This document shows, piece by piece, positions 5,444-25,882 of a stretch of 49,109 nt of DNA. The notes under the pieces are model-generated. The model ran no database searches, was not told where the DNA came from, and saw only the letters and a program-made list of their open reading frames with translations. Location: NCBI GenBank assembly GCA_902564345.1, contig CACFAY010000006.1, positions 1 through 49,109 on the forward strand. The letters are read 5' to 3'. A program made the position numbers and the translations under genes. Within the stretch, counting starts at the first letter, position 1; every line of letters starts with the position of its first letter. Origin of the DNA: an uncultured SAR324 cluster bacterium (lineage in GTDB: Bacteria; SAR324; NAC60-12).

Positions 5444-7384
5444 ATGACTTACGGATACACAGGAAAAATATTACATGTAAACTTAACAAAAGGTGAGCTG
5501 GAAATTGAAGAACCTGATGAACAGTTTTACCGCACTTATATGGGTGGTAGTGCGATGGGTATGCACTATGTTCTTAAAGAGACACCAGCAGGGGTTGATC
5601 CCTTCAGTCCTGATAATGTACTTGCTTTATGTACAGGGATTTTAACGGGAACACCAATTTCTGGACAAAGTCGTTTGACTTCCGTTGCAAAATCTCCACT
5701 TACAGATTGTATCGGAGACGCACAAGGTGGGGGTTATTTCCCAGCTGAGATGAAATTTTCTGGATTTGATGCAGTAATTATTAAAGGTAGATCTCCAAAG
5801 CCTGTTTATCTATGGATGCATCATGGTGAGGCAGAACTTCGTGATGCTGGTCATTTGTGGGGGTTAAAAACAGGAGACGCCGAGGATAAACTTAAAGAAG
5901 AATTAGATGATAAAAGAATTGAGGTCCTGCAGATTGGACCTGCAGGGGAGAATCTAGTGAGATTTTCTGCGCTGATAAGCATGAGCAACCGCGCAAATGG
6001 CCGAACAGGTATGGGAGCTGTTATGGGTTCAAAGAATCTTAAAGCAGTTGTGGTAAGGGGAAAAATGAAACCTGTTATTGCAAATCCAGAAAAATTTAAG
6101 GAGATGCAGAAGTTGGCAAAGGTAAATATGGAACCTACGGGTATGGACGGCTTTGGTAAATATGGAACTCCTGGTGTATGTTCTCCACAACATAGAGCCG
6201 GAGGTTTACCGACTTATAATTTCAACAGCGGTAACTTTGATAAACATGAAGAAATTGATGGTCACAAACTTTACAATGAGCATCTAAGAGGCCATGAAAA
6301 AGACGATCAGAATCGTTTTGGGAGAGATACTTGTTTCAGTTGTACAGTCAAATGCAAACGTGTTTCAGAAGTCGTTGAAGGTCCTTTTAAAACAGATGCT
6401 AAATACGGTGGTCCGGAATATGAAACCTTGGCCACTTTTGGAAGTTATTGCGGCATAAGTGATATGGATGCGATTATTCATGCCAATGCCCTTTGTAACA
6501 TGTATGGAATGGATACTATTTCCTGCGGAGCCACAATAGCATGGGCCATGGAGTGTTGGGAAGAAGGTAAATTAACACTAGAAGATACAGGAGGAATCAA
6601 ACTGAATTATGGAAACGCTGAAGCAATGGTAAAAGTTACTGAGATGATAGCTCACCGAGAAGGTTTTGGTGAAATCCTTGCGGAAGGCTCCAAGAAAGCT
6701 TCTGAGATAATTGGCCGTGGAACTGGAGAATACTTAATTACAAGTAAAGGTCAGGAAGCACCTGCACATATGCCTCAGGTAAAACGTAGCTTGAGTGTTA
6801 TTTATGCGGCAAATCCATTTGGCGCAGATCATGAGTCAAGCGAACATGATCCAGGGTATAAAGCCTATCCGGAACGTATGAAGGAAATTGGACTGACTAA
6901 TCCTCAAGAAAAATTGGCGCTTAACAAAGAAATGATGCGCTTTGCAATGATCACTCAGCATTTGTCAAGTGCGGTGGACAGTATCTCAGTCTGCGCATTT
7001 GTTTTTGGAGCTTCCTTTCAGCTTTATACGCCTGAACAATTGGTCCAAGCAATTAATGCTGTAATGGGCTGGAATGTAGATATGGAAGAGATTCTGCAAG
7101 TTGGTGAACGCCGACTCAACATGTTAAGGGCTTTTAATTCAAGAGAAGGTGTTGGAAGAGAATCAGACACTCTTCCGAAAAAGATGTTTAATAGGCCTCT
7201 TAAAGGAGGTCGGTCTGATGGTTATTTTATAAATGAGGAAGAATGGGAAGCTGCATTGGAAGATTACTACCGTTTATGCGATTGGGATGTGGATACTGGT
7301 CATCCGTCACTAAAGAAAATGGAATCACTTGGTCTGGGTTGGGTAGTTGCAGATAACAATGAACTTTCGAAAGTTATTATCTAA
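5444..7384 (+). CDS. aor: Aldehyde:ferredoxin oxidoreductase (AOR), Mo/W-pterin [4Fe-4S] enzyme
   Basis: A 646-residue AOR-family protein. It opens with the typical MTYGYTGKILHVNLTKG strand and the GGSAMGMHYVLKE loop. The [4Fe-4S] ligands are C297, C300 and C304 (CxxCxxxC), with C517 in the downstream DSISVCAF motif. These enzymes interconvert aldehydes and carboxylic acids using ferredoxin at a tungsten- or molybdenum-bis-pterin centre. The length fits the family (about 600-650). No AorA-type ferredoxin or AorC flavoprotein subunit is nearby, so the electron partner is unknown. It forms a tight cluster with the upstream sulfur carrier and NAD(P) aldehyde dehydrogenase. The substrate is not readable from sequence. 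Confidence 0.92.
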   Translation: MTYGYTGKILHVNLTKGELEIEEPDEQFYRTYMGGSAMGMHYVLKETPAGVDPFSPDNVLALCTGILTGTPISGQSRLTSVAKSPLTDCIGDAQGGGYFPAEMKFSGFDAVIIKGRSPKPVYLWMHHGEAELRDAGHLWGLKTGDAEDKLKEELDDKRIEVLQIGPAGENLVRFSALISMSNRANGRTGMGAVMGSKNLKAVVVRGKMKPVIANPEKFKEMQKLAKVNMEPTGMDGFGKYGTPGVCSPQHRAGGLPTYNFNSGNFDKHEEIDGHKLYNEHLRGHEKDDQNRFGRDTCFSCTVKCKRVSEVVEGPFKTDAKYGGPEYETLATFGSYCGISDMDAIIHANALCNMYGMDTISCGATIAWAMECWEEGKLTLEDTGGIKLNYGNAEAMVKVTEMIAHREGFGEILAEGSKKASEIIGRGTGEYLITSKGQEAPAHMPQVKRSLSVIYAANPFGADHESSEHDPGYKAYPERMKEIGLTNPQEKLALNKEMMRFAMITQHLSSAVDSISVCAFVFGASFQLYTPEQLVQAINAVMGWNVDMEEILQVGERRLNMLRAFNSREGVGRESDTLPKKMFNRPLKGGRSDGYFINEEEWEAALEDYYRLCDWDVDTGHPSLKKMESLGLGWVVADNNELSKVII

Positions 7385-7526
7385 GGTTTTAGATTTTAAT
7401 TTAAATCAAAATTATAAACTTTTTTGACAGAGTCAAACCAAAAAAAACTTCACCGTCAGAAAACATTCAGGTAAATGATGAATTTTGGAATCTTCTCTGT
7501 TTTAAGTCGATGGATTATTAAACAGA

Positions 7527-9062
7527 TTATTTAGAGTTGGAGTATTGATCTGAAAGTTTTAGGCGCTGAATTTTACCCGAGGGGCCTTTTGGTAGTTCAT
7601 TGAGGAAAAAGTAGTGGTCCGGGGATCTATATTCTCCTAATGCAACCAGACATAGTTTCCTGAGTTCAGATTCAGGAACTTTTTCCCCAGGACGCGGAGC
7701 TATAGCTGCTGCAATAATTTGTCCATAATGTTTATTTGGTAGTGGGAAAGCTGCAGCCTCCAAGACACTTTTATGTCTGTATAAAACATCATCAATTTCT
7801 CGTGGTGAGATGTTCTCTCCGCCTTTGATAATGAGTTCTTTAAGACGTCCGGTAACAAATACGTAGCCTTCAGAATCCATCTTTCCAAGATCACCTGTTC
7901 TATACCATCCATCAGGGGTGAATGCTTCTAGAGTTGCTTTAGGATTTTTAAGATAGCCTTTCATTAAATTTAATCCTCTAACCTGTATCTCACTTTCTGT
8001 ATTTGAAGATGCTTCAGTTCCATCAGCGTCAGCTATTCTTACCTCGTTTCCATACGCTATTCCAGGTGAACCAAGTTTATGCAGTTTTGGGTCAACTGGG
8101 TTTGAAAGTAGCGGAGAAGCAGTTTCAGTAATACCCATGGTTTCAACAACTTTTATTCCAAAACGTTCTTCAAATGCTTTTTGCAGGGCAGGAGGTAATG
8201 CTGCTGACGCAGAGCGTCCAAATCTAACGCTTCCCATTTTTGATTTTAATTTTTCTCCTTCTTCAATATTCATCAAATAAGAGATAATTGTAGGAACTAC
8301 ACTAAACCAAGTACATTTTTGGTCAACAACCAAGGACCAGAATTTGGATGCCTGAAAACGTTTTGGCATAACTAAACCTGAACCGTTTACAAGTGTGCCC
8401 ATAACAGAAACTACTTGTGCGTTGATATGGTAGAGTGGCAATACGCAAAGGCTTTTGTCATAAGGTTTTAGATCATGAGCTATTTCGGTATTCCAGCCTC
8501 CATAAAGAAGGCTTTCATGTGTGTGTATAACTCCCTTTGGACGTCCCGTAGTTCCAGATGTATAAATAAGTAAGGCTTTTTCTTTCGGGGTAGGTTTATA
8601 TTTTAAAAGTTTTTTGACCGGGACATTGTTATTCCAAACCGGCAATTCGTCCTCAAAATTAAGTATGATTTCCGGTTTGTTTGTAAGATGAGAAAGTGCA
8701 TGTTCTGCTAATTCTTGGTATTGATGCGCTACAAACAGTATTTTAGTTTCAGAATGTTCTAATACATAAGCTAAAATATCTCTGCCTGATAAGGGATTTG
8801 CCAGCAAGACTTGAAATCCTCCGTACATTCCTCCCAAAAATAATTCCAACGCTGTTTGTCCATTACCAAGTAGGCCTGCTATAGGAACTTTACGGGAAAG
8901 TCCCTTCTCATTCAAATAAGATGATACAGACTGAACACGTTGTTTAAATTCTCTCCAGCTAAAAGATTTCCCTGTTTCAGGATAAACCACATAATTCTGT
9001 TTCGGAATATTATCCGCGTGGTGGTCAATCAAACTCTGGATTGTATGTCCTAATGGATTCAC
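7527..9062 (-). CDS. sauT: AMP-forming acyl-CoA ligase, SauT-like (sulfoacetate-CoA ligase candidate)
   Basis: A 511-residue member of the ANL superfamily. The ATP-binding P-loop YTSGTTGRPKG lies at 167-177, the A8 hinge GWYRTGDLG and motif GRLKELIIKGGENISP follow, and the catalytic lysine is K497 in GPSGKIQRLKL. It forms an acyl-adenylate and then a CoA thioester. It lies 47 bases after a SauS-like CoA-acylating aldehyde dehydrogenase on the same strand, the same gene pair as in the sulfoacetate operon sauRSTU of Cupriavidus. Sulfoacetate is therefore the first candidate substrate; oxalate or another short acid remains possible. The assignment rests on context more than on substrate-specific residues. 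Confidence 0.6.
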   Translation of the reverse strand: MNPLGHTIQSLIDHHADNIPKQNYVVYPETGKSFSWREFKQRVQSVSSYLNEKGLSRKVPIAGLLGNGQTALELFLGGMYGGFQVLLANPLSGRDILAYVLEHSETKILFVAHQYQELAEHALSHLTNKPEIILNFEDELPVWNNNVPVKKLLKYKPTPKEKALLIYTSGTTGRPKGVIHTHESLLYGGWNTEIAHDLKPYDKSLCVLPLYHINAQVVSVMGTLVNGSGLVMPKRFQASKFWSLVVDQKCTWFSVVPTIISYLMNIEEGEKLKSKMGSVRFGRSASAALPPALQKAFEERFGIKVVETMGITETASPLLSNPVDPKLHKLGSPGIAYGNEVRIADADGTEASSNTESEIQVRGLNLMKGYLKNPKATLEAFTPDGWYRTGDLGKMDSEGYVFVTGRLKELIIKGGENISPREIDDVLYRHKSVLEAAAFPLPNKHYGQIIAAAIAPRPGEKVPESELRKLCLVALGEYRSPDHYFFLNELPKGPSGKIQRLKLSDQYSNSK

Positions 9063-9109
9063 AATTTTTGTTAATTCTTCAGTTATTTTGTAAATGATAT
9101 TAAATATTA

Positions 9110-10504
9110 TTAGCGACCATGTTTTTTCCAGAAGTCACCAAATATTTCTTCTTCACTGGGTTCTATTGGATTTAGAGGATGAACTACCTGTACTATATTA
9201 AGAAAATGTCGATAATTGAGATTATCACTTATGCTATTTTTACCCCATGTACCACAACCCATTGAAAGAGAAAAGGGCAACCCGTTACCAAAACTGCCGC
9301 CAGTAGCTAGACAATGTGGCTGATTTACAATTACGCGACATGCAGGAAGCTTCAGCCCCATTTCCAGAGGACGTTTTTCACTTTTTGAATGTATTCCAAC
9401 TGAGTGTCCTTTTCCTTGGAATTCGTATAATTCTATTATTTTTTGGCAAGCATTTTCAAAATTATCTGCTCTATATATGGTCAATACGGGGCTGAGTTTT
9501 TCTCCAGAAAATGGATATTCGCTTCCTGTGCCTTTTTCTTCTACCATTAGCATTTTTGCTTGCTTCATTTCCGGGCGCTGCAAGCCAACTATTTCAGCGA
9601 TCTCAGGGGCTGATTTTGCAATCAAATGTGGATTTAATTTTCCTTTAAACCATAAATTGTTTTTTAATTCTTCTGTTTCCTTAGGGTCAAGAAGAACTCC
9701 ACCCTCAATCTGCAGTGCTTTAATAGCATTTTCATAAACTTCATCCACAATCATGAGACTATTTTCAGATGAACAACTGGTTGAATTGTCAAATGTCTTT
9801 GAAGTCACGACCTTTCTAGCAGCAGAAGCCATATCAGCAGTTTCATCAATAATAACCGCTACGTTTCCTACACCAACGCCTATTGCTGGAGTACCACTTT
9901 TATAAGCAGAACTTACATTTTTTTCAGATCCTGTAACCACCACCATGTCAACACACTGCATCAGTTTACTGGTTGACTCCTTGCTTGCAGGAGATGGGAT
10001 TTTTTGTATAAGGTACTGGGGATGATCAAGCCTGATCAGGACCTTTTGCATTATTTTAACAATAATTTCACAGATAGCATCACCTTTAGGTGATGGAGCT
10101 AGTATGATTGAGTTTCTTCCTTTAATTGCGTTTATAGTATTATTTAAAGGCGTTGCAATCGGATTAGTGGAAGGAGTAATTGCTCCCACTACTCCTACTG
10201 GACGAGCAATTTCAACTAATCCCTTTTCTGGAATTTTTTTTATGACACCCACAGAAGGAGCATTTTTCAAGTCTCTGAGGAGACCTAAAGTTTTTCGGTA
10301 ATTTTTGTTGAATTTATCATCTGAATTTCCAAGTCCAGTATCATGGACAGCTTTATTTGATAAGGAATGGTTAGTTTTTGGCTCTATTAATGACCATGCT
10401 AGACCTATAATTAATTCATCAACTACTTCTTGTTTGGCACTTTCAAAATGCTTCTGAGCTTCATAAGCCTGTTTGATTATTGTTTCAATTGGGACTTTTG
10501 TCAT
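9110..10504 (-). CDS. sauS: CoA-acylating aldehyde dehydrogenase, SauS-like (sulfoacetaldehyde dehydrogenase, acylating)
   Basis: A 464-residue enzyme of the EutE/AdhE-N acylating aldehyde dehydrogenase family. Conserved blocks are ITPSTNPIATPLNN, GTPAIGVGVGN, the catalytic C244 in KTFDNSTSCSSENS, YPFSGEKLSPVL, and a C-terminal GNGLPFSLSMGCGTWGKNS. From memory the last three fit SauS better than EutE or PduP. Residues 1-20 look like an ordinary N-terminal helix without a clear encapsulation peptide, so microcompartment targeting is not evident. The reaction expected is acyl-CoA + NAD(P)H to aldehyde + CoA. It sits between a TauE exporter and the acyl-CoA ligase, all transcribed leftward, as expected for sulfoacetate use. 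Confidence 0.68.
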   Translation of the reverse strand: MTKVPIETIIKQAYEAQKHFESAKQEVVDELIIGLAWSLIEPKTNHSLSNKAVHDTGLGNSDDKFNKNYRKTLGLLRDLKNAPSVGVIKKIPEKGLVEIARPVGVVGAITPSTNPIATPLNNTINAIKGRNSIILAPSPKGDAICEIIVKIMQKVLIRLDHPQYLIQKIPSPASKESTSKLMQCVDMVVVTGSEKNVSSAYKSGTPAIGVGVGNVAVIIDETADMASAARKVVTSKTFDNSTSCSSENSLMIVDEVYENAIKALQIEGGVLLDPKETEELKNNLWFKGKLNPHLIAKSAPEIAEIVGLQRPEMKQAKMLMVEEKGTGSEYPFSGEKLSPVLTIYRADNFENACQKIIELYEFQGKGHSVGIHSKSEKRPLEMGLKLPACRVIVNQPHCLATGGSFGNGLPFSLSMGCGTWGKNSISDNLNYRHFLNIVQVVHPLNPIEPSEEEIFGDFWKKHGR

Positions 10505-10728
10505 AAAACAAATTACTATGTAATTTGGAAGTTTATTTTAAAATTAATTCTATTATTTAAAACAAATTTCTTAGAAAGAATTGGTGTAAACAAATATTTT
10601 GAGTTATTCAAACTATTTTTAATTTAAATATAATACTCTGATGTGAATCAAATTGTATTATTGAAATTATTTTACATAAAGGTATCACTAAGAGCATAGT
10701 AAAAGTAAAATATATTATTCAAATAATT

Positions 10729-11493
10729 TTAGAATATTTTATTCGCAAATTTTTGTGATGAATTAACTAGTATAAAATTCCCCAATAAAATAAGGCAAAA
10801 GAAAAATATTTTTTTGAATAAATCTTCAGGAATTATTTTTCTTATTAGCTGACCTATTAGTACACCTGTAATTGCTGGTAAAATTGCAAATGATGACCAT
10901 AAAAACAGTTCAAGCGTTAGAATATTTTTTGTTTTAAGTGAGAAAATCATCATCATTGTTAAAGCTGAGAATAAAATTCCCATTGACTGTACTAACCATT
11001 CTTTGCGTAGTTTAATTGCCTGAAAATAAAAAACACATGGTAAAACAAAAATACCAGTCATTCCTGTAACTAACCCGTTAATTAACCCAATAATTGGTGC
11101 TATCCACAACTCATTTTTTGTTTTAACCTCTATACTGAGACCGAAAAGGCTCAATGTGGAATAAAAAATAAGGAGAATGCCTAGAAATGAAGAAAGATAT
11201 GGTAGTGAAACAGTTTTTAATGCCATCGAACCAAACCATACCATTATACTGGCTGTAAATACCAATAGCCAATGACGTCTCAGCATTTTAAATAGATCTC
11301 CTCCTGCTAAAGCCTGCCAAAAATTTGTTACAAGGGATGGAATAAGTAACAGCGTAATAGCGTTAGGTAAGTTCGTTATAATTGTTAAAAACGCAATACC
11401 AACTGTCTGAAAACCAACTCCGATTGTTCCTTTAAGCATACCAGCAATGAATATGGAGCAAAAAATTGCTAAAGCAGTTGTTTCGTTAAACAT
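10729..11493 (-). CDS. tauE: TauE/SafE-family membrane protein, probable sulfite or organic anion exporter
   Basis: About 254 residues with seven to eight hydrophobic helices and the family signature GxxKGTIGVGFQTVGIAFL near the N-terminus, repeated in degenerate form (LINGLVTGMTGIF) in the second half. TauE/SafE proteins are commonly placed with sulfonate catabolism and are thought to export sulfite or sulfoacetate. I start at the ATG at 11493, preceded by GAGAG at good spacing; an in-frame TTG at 11508 would add five residues and lacks that spacing. The gene is divergent from the TTT binding protein (about 160 bases between starts) and upstream of the acylating aldehyde dehydrogenase on the same strand, which supports a sulfonate role. 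Confidence 0.8.
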   Translation of the reverse strand: MFNETTALAIFCSIFIAGMLKGTIGVGFQTVGIAFLTIITNLPNAITLLLIPSLVTNFWQALAGGDLFKMLRRHWLLVFTASIMVWFGSMALKTVSLPYLSSFLGILLIFYSTLSLFGLSIEVKTKNELWIAPIIGLINGLVTGMTGIFVLPCVFYFQAIKLRKEWLVQSMGILFSALTMMMIFSLKTKNILTLELFLWSSFAILPAITGVLIGQLIRKIIPEDLFKKIFFFCLILLGNFILVNSSQKFANKIF

Positions 11494-11563
11494 TTTAATT
11501 ACTCTCAAAAATTTGAATGTGTTAACAATATATTTAATATGAAAAAATAATGAGACAATTTTC

Positions 11564-11591
11564 TTGACATATTATAGTATTTAGTTAGATT
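11564..11591 (+). promoter_or_regulatory. Promoter of the TTT transporter operon with an overlapping inverted repeat
   Basis: A perfect -35 box TTGACA (11564-11569) is followed after 16 bases by TAGATT (11586-11591, 4 of 6 consensus), giving a leader of about 57 bases before the tctC ATG at 11655, which has the ribosome site AGAGAGG. An inverted repeat TAATATG (11535-11541) / CATATTA (11568-11574) overlaps the -35 region with arms about three helical turns apart and could be an operator. Confidence 0.5.
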
Positions 11592-11654
11592 ACCTGATCA
11601 TTCTTCACAATTCAGTGATTAATGAATATTTTAGTAAATTAAAAGAGAGGTAGG

Positions 11655-12686
11655 ATGAAAATAAATTATCTTAAGAAATTAATTGCATTTGGATTTGTGG
11701 GTGTGCTGAGTTTTTTCCTGGCTAGTTCAGCAGGCGCATTCGAGTGCAAGATTAAGAAAAGCAGTATGGCTAAGCCTTCAGGATATCCTAGTCGAGCATT
11801 AACCATGATTGTTCCATATGGGCCTGCCGGAGGATCAGGGCAGATAGCCGCGGCAATGGCTGAGGCTGTAACAGATCTTACAGGTGTAAGTATTAATCGT
11901 GATCACAAACCTGGCGGCTCAGGAACAGTAGGCATGACTGCATATATGTCTGCCCCCTCAGATGGTTATACAGTGCTTGAACATATAGATGATGCTTCTT
12001 CTGCTCATGCTCTTGATTCTAGTAGACCTAATCCTGCTGTTGACTTAATACCTTTGGTTATATCACAAGTCACATTTTCTCAGATATATATACGTACAAA
12101 TGAGACTCGTTACAATAATTGGTTCACATTCGTTAAGTGGGTCAAAGCTCAAAATGGGAAGTCAACTATTGCTAACGTGTCCAAAGAAGGATCGATGGAG
12201 CGTGTAACAATGAAATTTATCACTGAAGCAACTGGCATGAAAATACAACAGATTTCCTTCGACAAGGGTGCTCCGCGATATGGTGCACTGCTAGGGGGAC
12301 AAGTTGATGCACTATTTGAGCAACCAGGTGATGTCAGGAAGTTTCTTGATTCAGATAAATTCAAACCAATCCTTACAGTATTTAATGAAAGGCCATCTGT
12401 TTTTGCAGATGTTCCAACTCACAAGGAAATGGGTATGAATTTTGAGCCACTTCTGCGATTCAGAGGATTTTATGTACATGCAAATGCTCCGTCTGATAGA
12501 GTTAAATGGCTACAATGGGCATTTCAGCGTGCATATTGCCAAGATAGCTATCAGAAATTCAACGAGTCTAAATTCATGACTGTAATTGATAGTTATCGTG
12601 ATACTCAGGGTGCAAGGGATTTGATTAAATCCTCAATTATTCAGTATAGAAATGTCTATAAAGACATGGGTCTGAATGTTAAATAA
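11655..12686 (+). CDS. tctC: Tripartite tricarboxylate transporter (TTT) substrate-binding protein, TctC family
   Basis: A 343-residue periplasmic binding protein with a signal peptide (charged start, hydrophobic core, cut near SSAGA, about residue 28). The mature part has the TctC/Bug features YPSRALTMIVPYGPAGGSG and KPGGSGTVGMTAYMSAPSDGYT, which line the carboxylate site in the family. Known TctC proteins bind citrate, other di- and tricarboxylates, terephthalate or small sulfonated acids. It is followed by tctB and tctA on the same strand, making a full TTT system. Its divergent neighbours (TauE, SauS-like, SauT-like) suggest a sulfonated or short acid ligand. That ligand assignment is inference. 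Confidence 0.88.
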   Translation: MKINYLKKLIAFGFVGVLSFFLASSAGAFECKIKKSSMAKPSGYPSRALTMIVPYGPAGGSGQIAAAMAEAVTDLTGVSINRDHKPGGSGTVGMTAYMSAPSDGYTVLEHIDDASSAHALDSSRPNPAVDLIPLVISQVTFSQIYIRTNETRYNNWFTFVKWVKAQNGKSTIANVSKEGSMERVTMKFITEATGMKIQQISFDKGAPRYGALLGGQVDALFEQPGDVRKFLDSDKFKPILTVFNERPSVFADVPTHKEMGMNFEPLLRFRGFYVHANAPSDRVKWLQWAFQRAYCQDSYQKFNESKFMTVIDSYRDTQGARDLIKSSIIQYRNVYKDMGLNVK

Positions 12687-12730
12687 TGGTTAAACTTTTT
12701 TTTAATTTTTTAAAGCACCATTTCTAAATA

Positions 12731-12755
12731 GTGTCCGGTACTTCCTGCCGGACAC
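12731..12755 (+). terminator. Stem-loop between tctC and tctB (attenuating or mRNA-stabilising hairpin)
   Basis: GTGTCCGGTA pairs with TGCCGGACAC (ten pairs, one of them G-U) around the five-base loop CTTCC. No long T-run follows, so full termination is unlikely. In solute-transporter operons such a hairpin after the binding-protein gene typically keeps its transcript more abundant than those of the membrane subunits. Confidence 0.55.
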
Positions 12756-12779
12756 ATTTCAAAAATATTTATCAAGTAT

Positions 12780-13349
12780 TTGACCATGAATAAGTTAAAG
12801 GTTTCTCATATTTTTGAAACCAGCGTATGGATAGTCATCATTTTTGTCTTTTTTGCGTTTTCATTCGAGTTTGATCAGGAGATTGAAATTTATATTTTTG
12901 GTGCTACAGGTTGGCCAAGGACAATTTTGGGGATCCTTTTGCTTGTAGTGCTTGGTAATTTTTTCCAGCTATACAAAAAAGGTTCTCAAGAGCACCATGG
13001 ACGTATAGGCATATCAGAAGATGATGAGAGCATTTCATATGAAAGCTTCAAATCCGTACAGAAACTTATAGCAATTTTACTGCTCCCATTTCTTTACTCA
13101 TTGTCTCTTAAGCCAGTAGGATTCTATTCGGCAACTCCATTTTTCATTGCATTTTTAATTATGCTTTTAGGTGAAAAGAGAACTAAGTGGATTTTAGCAA
13201 ATACATTGTTAATATATTTCCTTATTATTTTACTTTTCATGGTTTTACTTAACGCTCCTCTACCTCAGGGTAATGTTTCACCATTCTACGATTTTAGTGC
13301 TTTCATGCTTACAATTAATACCAATCTTCATCAATACTTTAATTTCTAA
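12780..13349 (+). CDS. tctB: TTT transporter small membrane subunit, TctB family
   Basis: A 189-residue protein with four predicted membrane helices (about 12-29, 40-58, 90-130, 138-162) and a hydrophilic loop in the middle, the architecture of the poorly conserved small subunit of TTT transporters. The call relies mainly on its position between tctC and tctA. The start is not certain: the frame opens at a TTG at 12780, with ATG codons two and three residues later. It ends nine bases before tctA. Confidence 0.82.
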   Translation: MTMNKLKVSHIFETSVWIVIIFVFFAFSFEFDQEIEIYIFGATGWPRTILGILLLVVLGNFFQLYKKGSQEHHGRIGISEDDESISYESFKSVQKLIAILLLPFLYSLSLKPVGFYSATPFFIAFLIMLLGEKRTKWILANTLLIYFLIILLFMVLLNAPLPQGNVSPFYDFSAFMLTINTNLHQYFNF

Positions 13350-13358
13350 TCTAAGATT

Positions 13359-14843
13359 ATGATTGATAACTTTTTAGCGGGAACTGTTGCACTGTTTGGA
13401 GATCCTTTTTCTATTTTAATCTTTGTCTTCGGCGTCATTGGAGGGATGTTATTTGGTGCGATTCCTGGTGTCAGCATGCTGACTCTTGCAGCAATATTAC
13501 TCCCTTTTACAGCAAATTTTGACCCTGCACAGGGTGTTATGCTTTTTGCTGTTATTTACTGTACCGGGACTTATGGAGGAGCAATTACAGCAATTCTGTT
13601 TAATATCCCGGGTGCTCCTGAAAATGCTCCTACGGCGTTTGATGGATACCCCATGACAAAAAATGGTCAATCAGGAAAAGCAGTAGGAGCTGCAGTATTA
13701 TGTTCTGCTATTGGTGGAGTAACTTCTGCCGTAATTATGATGATGGCAACTGAACCTTTGGCAAACTGGGCAATCTCCAATATTGGTCCACCTGAGATTT
13801 TTGCATTGGTGTTTTTTGGACTAGCAGTCGCATCTTCAGTTGGAGGAAGAACCATTTGGAAGGGCTGGATTTCAGTATTATGCGGTTTAATGATAGCTAC
13901 AATCGGTCAGGACCCAGTTGGAGGAATCAATCGTTATAATTTTGGTTTTGCTGATCTTGCTGCAGGGATTGCATTTGTTCCAGCCATCCTTGGATTTTTT
14001 GCAGTTTCAGAGATATTTGTACAGGCAGAGAAAAAAGCAATTGGAAAATATGTGGCTCCAGAACTTAGTTTTGATTTTCCTACAATTATAGAATTGTGGA
14101 TTAATAAAATTGCTGTAGTAAGATCAATTGTTGTTGGGTTTTTTTGCGGCATTTTACCTGGGATAGGGGCTACTCTTGCTGCATTTATGGGTTATGGAGA
14201 AGCGGTTAGGTGGTCCAAGAATAAGAAAGAATTTGGAAAAGGTAAACTGGAGGGTGTAATATCTTCAGAGACTGCAAATAATGCCGCTACTGGTGCAGCA
14301 ATGATCCCTTTACTTGCACTTGGGCTTCCTGGAGGCGCTATGACGGCATTAATGGTTGGAGTATTTCAGATGCATGATTTGGAACCAGGTCCAATGGTGT
14401 TCTATAATTCCCCTGAACTAATTTGGATTGTATTTTCAGCAATGTTTTATGCAAATCTATCTATTCTGTTCATAGGTTTAATTGAGACAAAGACTATACT
14501 TTATCTGCTTAAAATACCATTTCAGTTTTTGGCACCTATGATTTTGCTGCTTTCAAGTATTGGCTCTTACATAGGAAGGGGTTTGGTACTCGATGTGATG
14601 ATTATGTTTGGTGCAGGCATAATTGGGTTTTTGCTTAGAAGATCTGGCTACTCGATACCTGGTATTGTGCTGGGAATTATATTGGGTAAAATTGGAGAAC
14701 AGAACTTTGCTCAGGGAATGCAAATGGTGCATTATGACATTTTTGAGTACTTGTCTAGGCCAATATGTCTACTTTTAATTGTTGCTGGCTTGCTAACATT
14801 ATTAGCAGGAGTATACAGGGCGGTGTCTTTTTCTATGAAATAA
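13359..14843 (+). CDS. tctA: TTT transporter large membrane subunit, TctA family
   Basis: A 494-residue integral membrane protein with about twelve helices. It carries the TctA motifs GAIPGVSMLTLAAILLPFT in the first half and GFFCGILPGIGATLAAFMGY in the second, the two repeated G-x-PG-x re-entrant elements of the family, and the conserved NIPGAPENAPTAFDGYPM loop. It forms the sodium- or proton-driven channel that accepts ligand from TctC. It is tightly linked to tctB (nine-base gap) and completes the transporter. Confidence 0.93.
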   Translation: MIDNFLAGTVALFGDPFSILIFVFGVIGGMLFGAIPGVSMLTLAAILLPFTANFDPAQGVMLFAVIYCTGTYGGAITAILFNIPGAPENAPTAFDGYPMTKNGQSGKAVGAAVLCSAIGGVTSAVIMMMATEPLANWAISNIGPPEIFALVFFGLAVASSVGGRTIWKGWISVLCGLMIATIGQDPVGGINRYNFGFADLAAGIAFVPAILGFFAVSEIFVQAEKKAIGKYVAPELSFDFPTIIELWINKIAVVRSIVVGFFCGILPGIGATLAAFMGYGEAVRWSKNKKEFGKGKLEGVISSETANNAATGAAMIPLLALGLPGGAMTALMVGVFQMHDLEPGPMVFYNSPELIWIVFSAMFYANLSILFIGLIETKTILYLLKIPFQFLAPMILLLSSIGSYIGRGLVLDVMIMFGAGIIGFLLRRSGYSIPGIVLGIILGKIGEQNFAQGMQMVHYDIFEYLSRPICLLLIVAGLLTLLAGVYRAVSFSMK

Positions 14844-15110
14844 TTAATTTGCATAAGCAAAAGAATAATTAATGTCTTTCAAACCTTTTAAAATGAATGC
14901 ATTAGATAATTTTTCTCGTAAATTAAATTTATCAAATACCTTAAAGACTCTAATTCAATAAAAATTATTTTAAGAAAATTGTGATGAGCTAAATCAATGA
15001 AGACTAATACTTCATAGATTAAAATTCCTTGAATTGATGTTAGGAAGAAAAGCCATTATATGCTTACCACTTATCCCACCTTAATTCTGTTTTTACAGTA
15101 AATAAATATA

Positions 15111-16358
15111 ATGAAAAAAGTTCAATCTGACACAGAATTATTAAATATATCTCCAGTAAAAATGATTTTCTGGACATGTTTTTCTGTGGTGCTTTTGATG
15201 CAGGGAATTTTTACATTTTCATCAATGCTTCCTTTTTTCTTCAATGAATGGCAACTCGATAGTGTTGACGCTGGTTGGATAAGTGGAATTTATTACGGGG
15301 CCTACATGTTTTTTGTATTGATTCTTGTAAGTATTACAGACTGGATAGATGCAAAAAAAATATTTATTGGTGGTGCTTTAATTACATGCCTGAGTTGTTT
15401 TGGATTTGCTTTCTTCGCAGAAGGATACTGGACAGCCATGCTTTTCAGGACTATGGGTGGTATTGGTCTAGCTGGAACATATATGCCAGGTCTCAAGGCT
15501 CTGACAGACCGCTTAACTGGTAAATCCAGAGTAAGGGCAACATCCTTTTATACATCCTCATTTGGTGTGGGGAGTGCGTTTTCATTCTTAATAGGGGGTT
15601 ATATTCAGGACTGGTTTGCCTGGGAAGTTGCATTCTGGTTTGCAGGAATATGTGCATTGCTTGCAATTTTGATTATTTGTTTCACTCTAGATAATCTGCC
15701 TAATAAGTTTGGGTTATATTCAGGACTACGATCTCTAGATCTCAGACCTGTTTTGCGAAATCGGAGAGCAATGGGTTGGATTGCATGCTATTCAACTCAT
15801 AATTATGAACTTTTCGCATTCCGTTCATGGATTGTTGCTTACCTGGCTTTTGCTCTTACTGGTTTAGACAGTGGGAAAATTCAGCCATCACTAATTGTAT
15901 TTGTAGGAGTGTTACTAAGTATGCCTGCTAGTGTTTTAGGTAATGAGTTGTCAATGCGTTTTGGTAGAACACTCATTGTGAACAGCATTATGGGGCTTTC
16001 TTCAGTATTTGCCTTTTTAGTAGGATATAGTGCTGGTTTAGCAGTACCATATTTGATTTTAATTGTGTTGGTTTATGGTTGTTTTGTAACTGGAGAATCA
16101 GCATCAATTACAACAGGTGCAATAGAAAGTGCAACAGAAGATAGTCGTGGAGTTACTTTAGCGGTTCATTCTAGTATCGGTTTCATCGGATCATTTATGG
16201 GACCTGTTGGATTTGGAATAGTTCTAAATACTTTTGGTGGGCATAATAGTGAAAAAGCTTGGTTTTGGGCTTTTGCTTCAACAGGTATGATTCTTCTGAT
16301 AGGACCTTTAATTAATTTTTATCTCAGTAACTATAAATTTGACGTTTCTAATGATTAG
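15111..16358 (+). CDS. Major facilitator superfamily transporter
   Basis: A 415-residue MFS protein with about twelve hydrophobic helices. The loop 2-3 region has SITDWIDAKK, a degenerate form of the GxxxDRxGRR motif, and helix 4 contains FRTMGGIGLAGTYMPGLKALTD. Family members carry small anions, sugars or drugs; the substrate is not readable. It follows the TTT operon by 267 bases and precedes an orphan sucD. SauU, the sulfoacetate carrier in Cupriavidus, is also an MFS protein, so a role as second acid carrier is possible but unproven. Confidence 0.8.
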   Translation: MKKVQSDTELLNISPVKMIFWTCFSVVLLMQGIFTFSSMLPFFFNEWQLDSVDAGWISGIYYGAYMFFVLILVSITDWIDAKKIFIGGALITCLSCFGFAFFAEGYWTAMLFRTMGGIGLAGTYMPGLKALTDRLTGKSRVRATSFYTSSFGVGSAFSFLIGGYIQDWFAWEVAFWFAGICALLAILIICFTLDNLPNKFGLYSGLRSLDLRPVLRNRRAMGWIACYSTHNYELFAFRSWIVAYLAFALTGLDSGKIQPSLIVFVGVLLSMPASVLGNELSMRFGRTLIVNSIMGLSSVFAFLVGYSAGLAVPYLILIVLVYGCFVTGESASITTGAIESATEDSRGVTLAVHSSIGFIGSFMGPVGFGIVLNTFGGHNSEKAWFWAFASTGMILLIGPLINFYLSNYKFDVSND

Positions 16359-16484: not shown

Positions 16485-17360
16485 ATGTCCATTTTAATTG
16501 ATAAAAATACAAAACTATTGATTCAGGGAATTACTGGTTCTCAGGGAATGCTCCATACCAAAGGCTGCATTGATTACGGTACAAACGTTGTGGCGGGTGT
16601 AACTCCTGGAAAAGGTGGACAGAATTTTGAAGGAGTTCCAATTTTCAACTCCGTAATTGAAGCGATTAGAGCAACTGCCGCAAATGCCTCAATGATTTTG
16701 GTCCCACCTGCATTTGCTGCCGATGCAATAATTGAGGCAGCAGCTGCTGAAGTGCCTTTAATTGTGGCGATTACCGAAGGGGTACCAGTAATTGATATGG
16801 TACAGGCCGTTTACTTTGTACGTAAAAAGGGATGTCGGTTGATTGGCCCAAATTGTCCAGGAATAATAACTCCAAGTCAAAGTAAAATTGGTATTATGCC
16901 TGGTGCAATTCACAAAAAAGGGAGAATTGGAATTGTCTCAAGATCGGGAACTCTTACTTATGAGGCTGTAGGCCAAATTACTCGTATTGGTTTGGGCCAA
17001 TCAACCTGTGTTGGGATTGGGGGGGACCCAGTTAATGGAACAAATTTTATTGACTGTCTGAGTTTGTTTGAACAGGACGAGCAGACCGAAGCAATAGTTA
17101 TGATTGGTGAGATAGGGGGAGATGCAGAAGAACAGGCAGCAGAATACGCGAGAAATAATGTAACTAAACCCATAGTCAGTTTCATTGCAGGACAAACTGC
17201 TCCTCCCGGAAGAAGGATGGGGCATGCTGGAGCTATTATTTCAGGAGGACATGGAACTGCAGAAGAAAAAATGAATGCCTTAAGAGAAGCTGGAATCCAT
17301 GTGATTAAATCCCTTGATGAAATTGGAATTAAGATGCTTCAAGCTTTAGGAAAATCCTAA
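16485..17360 (+). CDS. sucD: Succinyl-CoA synthetase alpha subunit-type acyl-CoA ligase, without adjacent beta subunit
   Basis: A 291-residue protein matching SucD end to end: CoA-binding Rossmann region [28 protein letters not shown], and the phosphorylated active-site H247 in [14 protein letters not shown]. The enzyme couples a CoA thioester to NDP phosphorylation and needs a beta subunit for the ATP-grasp reaction. No sucC lies on either side, which is unusual because sucCD is normally a pair. It may work with a distant SucC, or be a paralog for another acid in this locus; an NDP-forming SucCD-like sulfoacetate-CoA ligase is known in Bilophila. A 15-base palindrome (16457-16471) lies just before the ATG. 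Confidence 0.88.
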
Positions 17361-20742: not shown

Positions 20743-20953
20743 AAATTCAGTGTCCTCATAATTTCCATTTATTCATTTACAGAGAGTTGTAATGGTGTGT
20801 ATGATTAAATTTCTAGTGGTGAAATTTTGCTTAAAAGTAGACTGGTATTTGTCTTCCTGTTAATATGATTGTAGTAATTTTAATCTCCATAATCAAAAGA
20901 AATTTAAAATTATGAATGTTACATTGCACTCATAATTGGAATTATTCCCCAAA

Positions 20954-22603
20954 ATGATTAATTTCAATACTAATCCTAAAAAATATCAACACTGGACTTT
21001 GGAAATAAAGGGCCAAATTGCTTCACTTATTCTTAATGTTAGTGAAGAAGGCGGTCTTTATAAAGGGTACAAATTAAAACTTAATTCTTATGACCTTGGA
21101 GTTGATATTGAACTTAATGACGCAATACAGCGTTTACGTTTTGAATATCCACAAGTCAGTGTAGTAGTAATTACTTCTTCCAAGGATAAAGTTTTTTGTT
21201 CAGGTGCGAATATTAAGATGCTTGGTCTTTTGTCTCATGCGCAGAAGGTAAATTTCTGTAAATTCACAAATGAAACAAGAAATTCAATTGAAGACTCAAC
21301 TAGATTTTCAGGACAGACTTATATCGCCGCCATTAATGGTGCTGCTGCAGGGGGGGGATACGAGCTTGCGTTGGCATCGGATTATATTTTGCTGGTAGAT
21401 GATGGTTCTAGCGCTATTTCATTACCTGAAGTTCCAATGCTTGCAGTACTTCCCGGTACTGGTGGGCTGACGAGGATTGTGGATAAGCGAAATGTGAGGC
21501 GTGATCATGCTGATTTTTTTTGCACCATTGCGGAAGGATTGCGAGGTAATCGTGCAGAGCAATGGAAACTAATTGACGAACTTGTTCCACGCTCTAAATT
21601 TTCTGAAACAGTTGAAAAACGGGCAATGGAAATTTCAGAGAAATCTAACAAGCCAGCAAGCTTAAAAGGAATTGATCTAACTGATCTTACAAGGGAGTTT
21701 AATGATAATAGCATAACATATGAAAACATTTTGATAACTTTAGATCGTAAGACAGGAGTTGTAAATCTGACGATAAAAGGGCCTTCTGGAGATTTACCAA
21801 TGGATCCTGAAAGCATTGCAATATTAGGAGATAAATACTGGCCTCTAGCTCTAGCAAGGGATCTTGATGATGCAATTATACACCTATCATTCAATGAACT
21901 GGAATTAGGTACCTGGGTTTTCCGCTCAGTGGGAGATATTGATAGTGTAGCAGATGTGGATGATATTTTAATTAAACACAAAAATCATTGGCTAATAAAT
22001 GAGATAATTCAATACCTCAAACGAGTACTGAAACGTCTTGATCTTGCTTCTCGTAGCTTAGTCACGCTTGTAGAACCAGGCAGTTGCTTTGCTGGAACTT
22101 TGCTAGAATTGGTTTTTGCTGCGGACAGGAGCTATATGCTTGACGGAACTTTACAAGATAGTAATGATTCTCCTGCGGTGCTGCGAACAACTAAAATGAA
22201 TTTTGGAAATTTGCCAATGTGCAATGACCTAACCCGCTTGCAGACTAGATTTCTGAACCAACCCGAGGAAGTGAAAAAAATTCATGACCATAGAGGAAAA
22301 GACATTCCAGCATTAGAAGCATTTGAGTCAGGAATGGTAACTTTTATTCCAGATGATATAGACTGGGAGGAAGAAGTTAGAATCGCCATTGAAGAAAGAA
22401 CAAGTTTTTCACCTGACGCATTAACTGGCATGGAAGCTTCTTTAAGATTTGCAGGGCCGGAAACACTTGAAACAAAAATATTCGGGAGATTATCCGCCTG
22501 GCAAAACTGGATTTTCCAGCGACCAAATGCAGCAGGGGAAAATGGAGCATTAAAGCTATATGGTACGGGTAAATTGGCCTATTATAATAAGGAGCGTGTT
22601 TAA
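20954..22603 (+). CDS. boxC: Benzoyl-CoA-dihydrodiol lyase (BoxC)
   Basis: About 549 residues with two crotonase-like parts. BoxC opens the 2,3-epoxybenzoyl-CoA ring hydrolytically, giving 3,4-dehydroadipyl-CoA semialdehyde and formate. Diagnostic features are the N-terminal NTNPKKYQHWTLEIKG (the BoxC-specific Y-x-HW), the oxyanion loop SSKDKVFCSGANIKMLG, AAINGAAAGGGYELALASDY, and the second-half stretch LVEPGSCFAGTLLELVFAADR. I prefer the ATG at 20954 because BoxC proteins begin about there (MINFNTNP); an in-frame TTG at 20936 would add six residues. It is divergent from mtaB and is followed by boxB after a 232-base gap that holds a long palindrome. Confidence 0.93.
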   Translation: MINFNTNPKKYQHWTLEIKGQIASLILNVSEEGGLYKGYKLKLNSYDLGVDIELNDAIQRLRFEYPQVSVVVITSSKDKVFCSGANIKMLGLLSHAQKVNFCKFTNETRNSIEDSTRFSGQTYIAAINGAAAGGGYELALASDYILLVDDGSSAISLPEVPMLAVLPGTGGLTRIVDKRNVRRDHADFFCTIAEGLRGNRAEQWKLIDELVPRSKFSETVEKRAMEISEKSNKPASLKGIDLTDLTREFNDNSITYENILITLDRKTGVVNLTIKGPSGDLPMDPESIAILGDKYWPLALARDLDDAIIHLSFNELELGTWVFRSVGDIDSVADVDDILIKHKNHWLINEIIQYLKRVLKRLDLASRSLVTLVEPGSCFAGTLLELVFAADRSYMLDGTLQDSNDSPAVLRTTKMNFGNLPMCNDLTRLQTRFLNQPEEVKKIHDHRGKDIPALEAFESGMVTFIPDDIDWEEEVRIAIEERTSFSPDALTGMEASLRFAGPETLETKIFGRLSAWQNWIFQRPNAAGENGALKLYGTGKLAYYNKERV

Positions 22604-22767
22604 AATCTTATAATAATTCATTAATGTTTTTGTAGGTTAAGTTTTGAAAAATAATCCTAACTTTGAGTACATTTTAAAATTTTCAGCTAATCCTAACCTA
22701 TTTTTATTTAATTAAATGACTCTCACTTTATCATTTTAAGAGTTCACATATAAAATTATTTTTGATC

Positions 22768-22797
22768 TTTGATTTGTCTTGTACAATCAAAATCAAA
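22768..22797. promoter_or_regulatory. 30-base near-perfect palindrome upstream of boxB (operator or leader hairpin)
   Basis: The left arm TTTGATTTGTCTTGT (22768-22782) and the reverse complement of the right arm (22783-22797) agree at 12 of 15 positions, with the centre reading TTGTACAA. It ends 38 bases before the boxB ATG. Symmetry and position suit a dimeric repressor site; as RNA it would form an AU-rich hairpin followed by a short T-run, so partial termination is also possible. Confidence 0.4.
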
Positions 22798-22835
22798 TTG
22801 GTTTTTAATTAAAATTAATATTATATTTCAGTTAT

Positions 22836-24251
22836 ATGACCATTAATTATAATGAGAAAATACCTAACAATGTTGATTTAAGCAGTGATAGAAGACTGCA
22901 GCGAGCATTGGAAAATTGGCAGCCAAAATTTCTTGACTGGTGGGAAGAACTTGGTCCTAATTATAGTTCTGAGTTCGATGTCTATCTGCGGACTGCCGTA
23001 AGCGTAGAAAAACAGGGATGGGCCCATTTTGATTATGTTAAAATGCCTGAATATCGATGGGGGATTTTTCTTACTCCATCAGACCCCAACAGGAAAATTG
23101 ATTTTGGTATGCACAAAGGAGAGCCTGTCTGGCAAGAGGTCCCTGGTGAATATCGTTCAGAGCTGAGACGCTTGATAGTAACTCAGGGTGATACTGAGCC
23201 AGCTTCAGTTGAGCAACAGAGGCATCTGGGTAAAACATGTCCTTCATTATATGACTTAAGAAATCTATTTCAGGTAAATGTTGAGGAAGGAAGACATTTG
23301 TGGGCAATGGTTTATTTATTACAAGCGTACTTTGGACGAGATGGTAGGGAAGAAGCAGATTCCCTTCTGGAAAGACACTCCGGTGATCAAGACAAACCCC
23401 GTATTTTGGGGGCCTTTAATGAAAATACTTCGGACTGGCTTTCTTTTTTTATGTTTACATATTTTACTGATCGTGACGGAAAATTTCAGTTGGCTTCTCT
23501 GGCAGAGTCAGCATTTGATCCATTGTCACGTTCATGCAGGTTTATGCTGACTGAAGAAGCACACCATATGTTTGTAGGAGAAAGCGGGGTGGGGCGAATA
23601 GTTCAGAGAACTTGTGAATTAATGAATGAATATAATACTTTTGATGTTAGAGAATATGGAGGAATCGATCTTCATACTCTGCAAAAATATCTCAATTTTC
23701 ACTTTAGTGTTTCCACTGATTTATTTGGCCAAGAGATTTCTACTAACGCGGCAACATATTTTAATACAGGACTAAAGGGTCGGTTGAACGAAGCAAGGAT
23801 TAATGATGATCATTTACTTCATGATGCAAGTTACCCAGTATTTCAAGTTAGTGAAGAACAAATATTTATAAACGAAACTCCTGCACTTAATGCCATAAAT
23901 GAACGTCTTCGTGATGACTACATTGCAGACTGCGATTTAGGGATAAGAAGGTGGAATAAAATAATTGAAAATTCAGGTCATGAATTTCGTTTTGAACTCC
24001 CCCACCGAGCTTTTAACAGAAATATAGGCCATTTTTCAAATATTAAAGTAAACCCAGAAGGAAGAATTATTTCTCAGCAAGAATGGGAAAAACGAAAATT
24101 TGAATGGATTCCTTCAGAAAGCGATCAATCATTTGTACAGTCTTTAATGAAACCAGTTATTGAACCAGGGAAAATAGCTGGATGGATTGCTCCACCTAAA
24201 GGCAGGATTAATCGTCAATCTTTTGAGTTTGACTATGTGCGTTTCAATTAG
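22836..24251 (+). CDS. boxB: Benzoyl-CoA 2,3-epoxidase, di-iron oxygenase component (BoxB)
   Basis: A 471-residue protein almost superposable on BoxB of Azoarcus. BoxB uses O2 and electrons from BoxA to form 2,3-epoxybenzoyl-CoA. Two ExxH di-iron motifs are visible: E151-G-R-H154 in NVEEGRHLWAM and E241-A-H-H244 in LTEEAHHMFVGESG. Other diagnostic blocks are YNEKIPNNVDL at the N-terminus, GEYRSELRRLIVTQGDTEPA and the C-terminal FDYVRFN. The BoxA reductase is not in the window, so electrons must come from a gene elsewhere or an unrelated ferredoxin reductase. The benzoate-CoA ligase gene follows after 29 bases. Confidence 0.96.
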   Translation: MTINYNEKIPNNVDLSSDRRLQRALENWQPKFLDWWEELGPNYSSEFDVYLRTAVSVEKQGWAHFDYVKMPEYRWGIFLTPSDPNRKIDFGMHKGEPVWQEVPGEYRSELRRLIVTQGDTEPASVEQQRHLGKTCPSLYDLRNLFQVNVEEGRHLWAMVYLLQAYFGRDGREEADSLLERHSGDQDKPRILGAFNENTSDWLSFFMFTYFTDRDGKFQLASLAESAFDPLSRSCRFMLTEEAHHMFVGESGVGRIVQRTCELMNEYNTFDVREYGGIDLHTLQKYLNFHFSVSTDLFGQEISTNAATYFNTGLKGRLNEARINDDHLLHDASYPVFQVSEEQIFINETPALNAINERLRDDYIADCDLGIRRWNKIIENSGHEFRFELPHRAFNRNIGHFSNIKVNPEGRIISQQEWEKRKFEWIPSESDQSFVQSLMKPVIEPGKIAGWIAPPKGRINRQSFEFDYVRFN

Positions 24252-24280
24252 GTATTGCTTAGATATTAACTACGAAAAAA

Positions 24281-25882
24281 ATGGGAAAAAACACTGTAAT
24301 TATTGATACTTTTTCCAGACCAGCAAAGATTGAATTTACGTCCGAATTTAACGTTGCCGTTCCCTTTATTGATCGGCACCTTGATGAAGGCAGGAGGGAA
24401 AAAATTATAATACATACAACTTCAGGAGAAAAAGTAACTTATGGACAGCTCTTTGAGCGGGTCAATCAATCTGGGAATGTACTCAAAAGCATTGGCCTAG
24501 ATCCTGGTGACAGGATTCTGATGGTGGTTAAAGACTCTCCAGAATTCTTCTACTTATTCTGGGGGGCAATCAAGGCGGGTTTTATTCCAGTCCCGCTTAA
24601 CACTTTGTTCCGTTGCAATGATTATTCGCATATTATTGAGGATTCAGAGTGTGCTGCAGTTTTCTACTCCCCGGAATTCAAGACTGAAGTAGAATCAGCT
24701 TTAGCTCAAGTTTCTAGGAGTCCAGATCATTCATGTCTTACTGAAGGTGTTTCTGGAAGCTTTTTGGAACAGTTACAATCAGCTTCATTAGAACTTGATG
24801 CAGCACCTAAATCTGTAAATGATGATTGTTTTTGGCTCTATTCTTCCGGAACTACAGGAAAACCTAAAGGAGTGGTCCACAGTCATCGTGACATGGTGGT
24901 AACAAGTCAGCATTACGGTATAAACACTCTTGGAGTGAGAGAAGAAGATGTTTGTTTTTCAGCTGCAAAACTATTTTTTGCTTACGGTTTGGGAAACGCG
25001 ATGACATTTCCTTTATGGTCTGGTGCTTCCTGCATTTTATTTCCAGAACGTCCAACTCCTCAGTCAACTTTTGATATAATAAAGCAATTTAAGCCTTCAA
25101 TATTTTTTGGAGTTCCTACCCTTTATGCGGCACAGTTGAAGGAACTTAAATCAGGTTCAGACAGTTCTAATGCAATCCCAGATCTTTCTTCGATTAGAAT
25201 CGCAGTTTCTGCAGGTGAAGCCCTGCCAGCTGATATACTTCGCCGATGGAAAGAACATACGAAAACGGACATTCTCGATGGAATTGGGTCCACAGAAGCA
25301 TTGCATATTTTCATTTCAAATAGTCCGGATGATATCAGAGCAGGGAGCAGTGGAAGAATGGTGCCGGGGTATGATGCAAAAATTGTTGATGAAAACGGTA
25401 AAGAAGTTTCACAGGGTGAGGAGGGTCGTCTATTAATTCGTGGAGATTCAACCTGTAAATACTACTGGAATAATGAGCAGAAGACTGCTGAGACAATTGA
25501 GGGTGGATGGCTGCATACTGGAGACTCGTATCATCAAGATGAAGAAGGATACTATTTTTATGGGGGACGAAGTGATGATATGATGAAAGTAGGTGGAATA
25601 TGGTGTTCCCCATTTGAGATTGAAGCTAGGCTGGTAGAGCATCCAAAAGTACTGGAAGCCGCAGTTGTGGGACGTGAAGACGATTCAGGATTGATCAAGC
25701 CTGAGGCGCATGTGGTCCTTAATGATTCTGATGAAGAAACTGAATCTGTAACTGCTGAATTGCTAGTACACTGTAAATCGGGACTTGCTCCTTACAAATA
25801 TCCTCGATGGTTTAACTTTGCAGAACAACTTCCAAAAACTGCTACAGGTAAGATACAGCGTTATAAATTGCGATCTAACTGA
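24281..25882 (+). CDS. bclA: Benzoate-CoA ligase
   Basis: A 533-residue AMP-forming ligase of the benzoate/hydroxybenzoate-CoA ligase group. The P-loop YSSGTTGKPKG is at 187-197, the substrate-pocket stretch AAKLFFAYGLGNAMTFPL is typical of BclA/BadA enzymes, DGIGSTEALHIFISN is the A5 motif and K524 in TATGKIQRYKL is the catalytic lysine. It activates benzoate (or a substituted benzoate) to the CoA thioester used by BoxB. It sits 29 bases behind boxB on the same strand and 31 bases before alkB, so these genes are probably co-transcribed. Confidence 0.92.
   Translation: MGKNTVIIDTFSRPAKIEFTSEFNVAVPFIDRHLDEGRREKIIIHTTSGEKVTYGQLFERVNQSGNVLKSIGLDPGDRILMVVKDSPEFFYLFWGAIKAGFIPVPLNTLFRCNDYSHIIEDSECAAVFYSPEFKTEVESALAQVSRSPDHSCLTEGVSGSFLEQLQSASLELDAAPKSVNDDCFWLYSSGTTGKPKGVVHSHRDMVVTSQHYGINTLGVREEDVCFSAAKLFFAYGLGNAMTFPLWSGASCILFPERPTPQSTFDIIKQFKPSIFFGVPTLYAAQLKELKSGSDSSNAIPDLSSIRIAVSAGEALPADILRRWKEHTKTDILDGIGSTEALHIFISNSPDDIRAGSSGRMVPGYDAKIVDENGKEVSQGEEGRLLIRGDSTCKYYWNNEQKTAETIEGGWLHTGDSYHQDEEGYYFYGGRSDDMMKVGGIWCSPFEIEARLVEHPKVLEAAVVGREDDSGLIKPEAHVVLNDSDEETESVTAELLVHCKSGLAPYKYPRWFNFAEQLPKTATGKIQRYKLRSN

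Follow-up and report, generated by a model that had tools for sequence, protein, structure and literature searches.

A candidate sulfoacetate module with a TTT transporter in SAR324, with Xsc encoded elsewhere in the genome

The SAR324 group is widespread in the ocean and uncultured. We analyzed a stretch of 49,109 nucleotides from an uncultured SAR324 cluster bacterium (the window, hereafter), which is contig 6 of a 1.86-Mb MAG with 136 contigs and an estimated completeness of 51.5%. The ORF list and a profile search of the window revealed a complete tctCBA set that is divergent from sauTS and a TauE/SafE-family gene (Table 1). An earlier note, made from the sequence of this stretch, had described the same leftward trio opposite a rightward tctCBA and MFS gene, and each of these ORFs was confirmed in position and by profile. 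The note was also correct in finding no xsc and no sau regulator in the window; xsc sits elsewhere in the genome.

Table 1. Genes of the candidate sulfoacetate locus and its boundaries (window coordinates).
Feature	Coordinates	Strand	Profile evidence and remarks
Aldehyde:ferredoxin oxidoreductase (AOR)	5444..7384	+	PF01314/PF02730; module boundary
sauT-like, AMP-forming acyl-CoA ligase, 511 aa	7527..9062	-	PF00501+PF13193; probable sulfoacetate-CoA ligase
sauS, CoA-acylating sulfoacetaldehyde dehydrogenase, 464 aa	9110..10504	-	NF047625
TauE/SafE-family membrane protein	10729..11508	-	PF01925, 74.5 bits; accessory; possible sulfite/sulfonate exporter
tctC, TTT periplasmic binding protein	11655..12686	+	PF03401, 67.7 bits
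tctB, small TTT membrane subunit	12780..13349	+	PF07331, 48.2 bits
tctA, large TTT permease subunit	13359..14843	+	PF01970, 421 bits
MFS transporter	15111..16358	+	PF07690; neighbor, probably not SauU
sucD, lone succinate-CoA ligase alpha subunit	16485..17360	+	NF004230, 455 bits (cut-off 336); module boundary

An SSADH-AOR-sauTS-(tauE)-tctCBA-MFS-sucD block is found again in congeneric genomes whose contigs reach far enough, with protein identities of ~60-97%, and the arrangement is therefore not an effect of chance or assembly. The locus is thus a real and conserved module, with a predicted role in sulfoacetate metabolism. SauS was found in 10 of the 17 genus genomes and scored above the model cut-off in eight of them; the two lower scores came from a copy truncated by a contig end (G014) and a copy broken by frameshifts (G015). 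The latter genome, a 5-contig assembly (locus L036), carries frameshifts in sauT, sauS, tctC, sucD, and livK that are probably long-read errors and not decay. TTT genes adjoin sauS in every congener whose contig extends that far, and the tctA orthologues beside the sau genes of the genus are 82-97% identical.

One congener, G008, has lost sauTS and tctCB; it is the only genus genome with >90% completeness. Its AOR and sucD are ~3 kb apart; sauTS and tctCB are missing from this interval, which holds a regulator gene, a short 3' remnant of tctA (61% identical), and the MFS gene. This joint loss of the sau and TTT genes fits a single function but may have been one deletion of neighboring genes. 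A gene for a sigma-54 activator of ~356 aa adjoins AOR in nine other genus genomes, with 81-85% identity to its G008 counterpart, and sits between AOR and sauT in those that have both. The corresponding position in the window is 142 bp long (7385-7526) and the bin yielded no closer match than 41%, which reflects either a lineage-specific deletion or an assembly fault.

The genes that flank the module were not assigned to the pathway. AOR and SSADH are conserved neighbors, yet they are present where sau genes were not found (AOR, for instance, in G002 and G008, neither with a detected sauS). We considered the downstream SucD as a SauD, the ADP-forming type of ligase, and found it 42-44% identical to proteins in the SauD position. 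We rejected this assignment given its score above the cut-off for canonical succinate-CoA ligase alpha subunits, the lack of an adjoining beta subunit, and its retention in the corresponding flank of G008 (82% identical) despite the absence of sau there. This gene, with no beta-subunit gene alongside, lies at the equivalent position in congeners, and most genomes of the genus yielded no other alpha copy at E<=1e-30.

The 464-residue protein, described as SauS-like in the earlier note, scored 697.7 bits against the curated NCBIfam SauS equivalog, above its cut-off of 600 bits. The cysteine that the note had singled out, C244 in FDNSTSCSSENS, is invariant in 8 of 8 aligned genus sequences, and we infer that Cys244 is the catalytic residue. 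The 511-residue ligase, whose gene lies 47 bp from sauS, matched no dedicated NCBIfam SauT model. Trees of both proteins, as the note had proposed, were built with general ligases (SauT) or other acylating dehydrogenases (SauS) as outgroups and without sequences from C. necator and B. wadsworthia. The window SauS fell among sauS-linked SauS proteins of other bacteria, several of them from loci with xsc, and the ligase fell with sauS-adjacent ligases of other bacteria, apart from the window's own other ligase. The two trees are mutually consistent: in both, the pair belongs to the sauST clade, away from the outgroups, and the window genus adjoins sauST of marine Gammaproteobacteria MAGs (SH-aLRT 95 for SauS and 96 for SauT).

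A desulfonating enzyme is encoded on another contig of the same MAG (G000:C18:846-2576), as a genome-wide search for xsc revealed. This Xsc scored 897 bits against TIGR03457 (cut-off 676.4) and 1001 bits against NF005713 (cut-off 620). After its gene come a class III aminotransferase gene, in the position of taurine:pyruvate aminotransferase (tpa), and an alanine dehydrogenase gene (582.9 bits, cut-off 391.85); no Tpa-specific model matched the aminotransferase, hence we call it Tpa-like only. The xsc-tpa-ald order is retained in congeners, including G008, and Xsc was found in 13 of the 17 genus genomes. Two fragmentary MAGs (G006 and G007) have sauS with no xsc found. The pairing of xsc and sauS is not merely a binning effect because G001 (contig C45) and G015 (contig C4) carry both genes on one contig, 122-126 kb apart.

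Within a 52-genome sample of the phylum, SauS above the cut-off was confined to two genera of one family, that of the window and that of G038 and G039. In these two genomes (loci L223 and L224), xsc, tpa, ald, sauS, and sauT are consecutive and in one direction, which ties SauST directly to Xsc in SAR324. No TTT, TRAP, or MFS genes were found among the scanned neighbors of L224. The SauST proteins of the two genera are not sisters in either tree, so the sau pair may have been gained twice, and we rejected a direct descent of the window pair from that of the sister genus. Taken with the xsc on another contig and the shared contigs of G001 and G015, the sister-genus gene order gives good support to the split pathway that the earlier note had supposed.

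Might the pair instead have a related acid as its substrate, for example 3-sulfopropionate or a short acid with no sulfonate group? The profiles and trees are compatible with more than one substrate, the solved structure nearest to SauS is a CoA-acylating succinate-semialdehyde dehydrogenase, and the 3-sulfopropionate route of Enterococcus also has a CoA ligase and a dehydrogenase (PMC12890257). The equivalog-level score of SauS, its grouping with SauS from xsc-carrying loci, and the position of the sister-genus pair directly after xsc-tpa-ald argue against this reading, which we regard as most improbable.

We conclude that the locus is very probably a sulfoacetate uptake and activation module that feeds the Xsc encoded elsewhere, as judged from the gene identities given by profiles, the conserved gene order, the presence of xsc, and the joint loss in one congener. 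TctC would bind periplasmic sulfoacetate and TctBA would import it. SauT would then convert sulfoacetate to sulfoacetyl-CoA, with ATP going to AMP, and SauS would reduce the sulfoacetyl-CoA to sulfoacetaldehyde. At this point the route would enter taurine breakdown, where the Tpa-like aminotransferase would yield the same intermediate, and the Xsc encoded with tpa and ald would split it into acetyl phosphate and sulfite, the latter possibly exported by TauE. The sulfoacetate and taurine routes thus probably converge on one Xsc.

The same genes could be read in the opposite direction, with taurine-derived sulfoacetaldehyde oxidized to sulfoacetyl-CoA and excreted as sulfoacetate by a TauE/SafE-like exporter, either as overflow or as a route to gain nitrogen. 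The Tpa-like aminotransferase encoded with xsc and the SafE/TauE-family protein adjoining sauS agree with such a flux. The known release of sulfoacetate in the use of taurine nitrogen relies on the non-acylating SafD, however, and the window SauS is far below the cut-off of the SafD model (27.6 vs. 700 bits). The locus also has a divergent, binding-protein-dependent importer, and TauE is missing beside sauS in several congeners. SqwD and SqwKL of sulfo-TK bacteria do run toward sulfoacetate (PMC12890257), but that route has an ADP-forming ligase that gains ATP, whereas the window ligase is AMP-forming. We consider reverse flux very unlikely.

The least conserved part of the locus is the TauE-family gene, found beside sauS in 4 of the 9 genomes that show this spot (the window genome, G001, G011, and G016) and absent there from G007, G009, G010, G014, and G015. 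Of the pta and sulfite dehydrogenase genes that the earlier note had suggested as search targets, no pta was found in the window's 51.5%-complete bin, and no SorA-type sulfite dehydrogenase (PF00174) was found in any of the 17 genus genomes. A PTA_PTB protein (PF01515) occurs in 9 of these 17 genomes. AprA (APS reductase) occurs in 7 of the 17 and was not found in the window's bin.

Searches for regulatory elements returned no sigma-54 promoters at the locus or its relatives (TGGCAC-N5-TTGCW, <=2 mismatches, GG/GC core) and no palindromic operator motif shared by the upstream regions of sau and xsc. Two near-identical palindromes, TTATCACACCATGTGATAA and TCACACCACGTGA, lie between tctC and sauS in G010 (L030, 6843-6892) and are a possible operator. 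A similar palindrome is present in G015 and none was found in the window.

SauST could be correctly named even if the TTT has another cargo, such as a di- or tricarboxylate, and a different carrier brings in sulfoacetate. TTT systems abound in the phylum (36 of the 52 sampled genomes), the kinship of the window TctA with sau-linked TctA proteins is compatible with all placements examined by AU test, and G003 has tctCBA-MFS-sucD at a contig end while sauS was not found in its bin. Against this stand the TTT genes beside sauS in all congener contigs that reach far enough and in most well-flanked loci elsewhere. Orthologous TctA (E<=1e-150) was, moreover, found in none of six genomes in which sauS was likewise not found (G002, G004, G005, G008, G012, and G013), with the end of a tctA visible at a contig edge in G013. 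On balance we view a different TTT cargo as unlikely, and we infer that sulfoacetate is the probable substrate. The solved structures nearest to TctC are BugD/TctC proteins (E 4e-21), at low similarity.

Relatives of the locus in other bacteria use several kinds of carriers. We examined 38 GTDB loci in which sauS is flanked on both sides by 5.5 kb or more; TctA was near sauS in 23 and DctM in 5, with one locus having both; this set is not a census because it was made of the relatives nearest to the SAR324 SauS. Annotated plasmid records showed sauST with MFS, sauST with TTT, sauSCD with TTT and xsc, and sauSCD with MFS and xsc. Several marine Gammaproteobacteria MAGs with sauST (L060, L061, L062, and L067) are among the nearest SauS and SauT outside SAR324 in both trees, but in place of a TTT their sauST is accompanied by TRAP genes (DctP, DctQ, and an 886-aa DctM) and one of the Pta family. 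TRAP is a further class of carrier for probable sulfoacetate uptake, judging from these gene neighborhoods.

The SAR324 TctA proteins formed a tight, separate clade in the free tree, set off by a very long stem (2.43 changes per column). The separate origin that this tree suggested for the SAR324 TTT was not upheld by AU tests, which did not reject monophyly of the sau-linked TctA as a whole (p 0.194) or SAR324 TctA joined to either Pseudomonadota group (p 0.317 and 0.609). The likelihood with SAR324 TctA constrained to the second Pseudomonadota group was slightly better than that of the free search. We offer only tentatively, as a possibility on the doubtful side, that SAR324 recruited its own TTT, which shares no recent descent with those linked to sau in Pseudomonadota, and joined it to a sauST pair that has mostly TRAP users as its nearest relatives; uptake would thus have been solved repeatedly, by MFS, TRAP, and several TTTs, around one enzyme pair.

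The window MFS protein was also considered as SauU. The comparators were MFS proteins encoded next to sauST in Paracoccus and Caballeronia, not the C. necator SauU itself, and the window protein shared only 19-23% partial identity with them (E 0.02-0.08); its gene is retained in G008 despite the loss of sauTS and tctCB. With such weak partial identity and its retention where sau was lost, we do not count it as a core part of the module.

The sauSTU genes of Cupriavidus necator were reportedly described by Weinitschke and colleagues in 2010. By a recent account (PMC12625764), they share with the window genome the proposed SauS and SauT chemistry and Xsc as the cleaving enzyme, whereas the window has a TTT in place of the MFS carrier SauU and no sau regulator at the locus. 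The sauSCD and SauXYZ genes of Bilophila wadsworthia (Liu et al., 2023, as represented in PMC12625764 and PMC12890257) likewise include SauS and a TTT as the predicted carrier; however, the ligase there is the ADP-forming SauCD, and sulfoacetaldehyde goes to isethionate and is cleaved by IseG, not Xsc. The closest published likeness is in dominant Arctic sponge symbionts (OTU1 and OTU4), for which "hybrid" sauST clusters with a TTT as the proposed sulfoacetate carrier were described in 2025, with reference to the TTT SauXYZ of Bilophila (PMC12625764). These symbionts have SauS, AMP-forming SauT, and TTT like the window, but they belong to other lineages, and in the window genome tctCBA and sauTS are transcribed away from each other while xsc lies on another contig, accompanied by a Tpa-like gene and ald (the comparison was one of gene content). 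The earlier note's main idea, a TTT in place of SauU, is therefore already published (PMC12625764).

As far as we searched, neither SAR324 as a host nor its split layout had been reported before, nor had the sauST relatives with TRAP genes; the search covered open-licence papers only and is weak evidence of novelty. A SAR324 pangenome study credits the group with freeing sulfite from alkanesulfonates by SsuD and from taurine by TauD, and a term search of the paper returned no mention of xsc (PMC8364033). An open-licence paper matched to both SAR324 and sulfoacetaldehyde did not assign the latter to SAR324. If our reading is correct, SAR324 would gain carbon and energy from both sulfoacetate and taurine through one Xsc and would be an added consumer in the marine C2-sulfonate cycle. 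The window TctC would provide a concrete protein for the still-predicted role of TTT in sulfoacetate uptake.

Further along the window (20936-25882), genes for a BoxC-like protein, a BoxB-like protein, and a CoA ligase, named by resemblance, have the look of aerobic benzoyl-CoA (box) degradation and are conserved in congeners.
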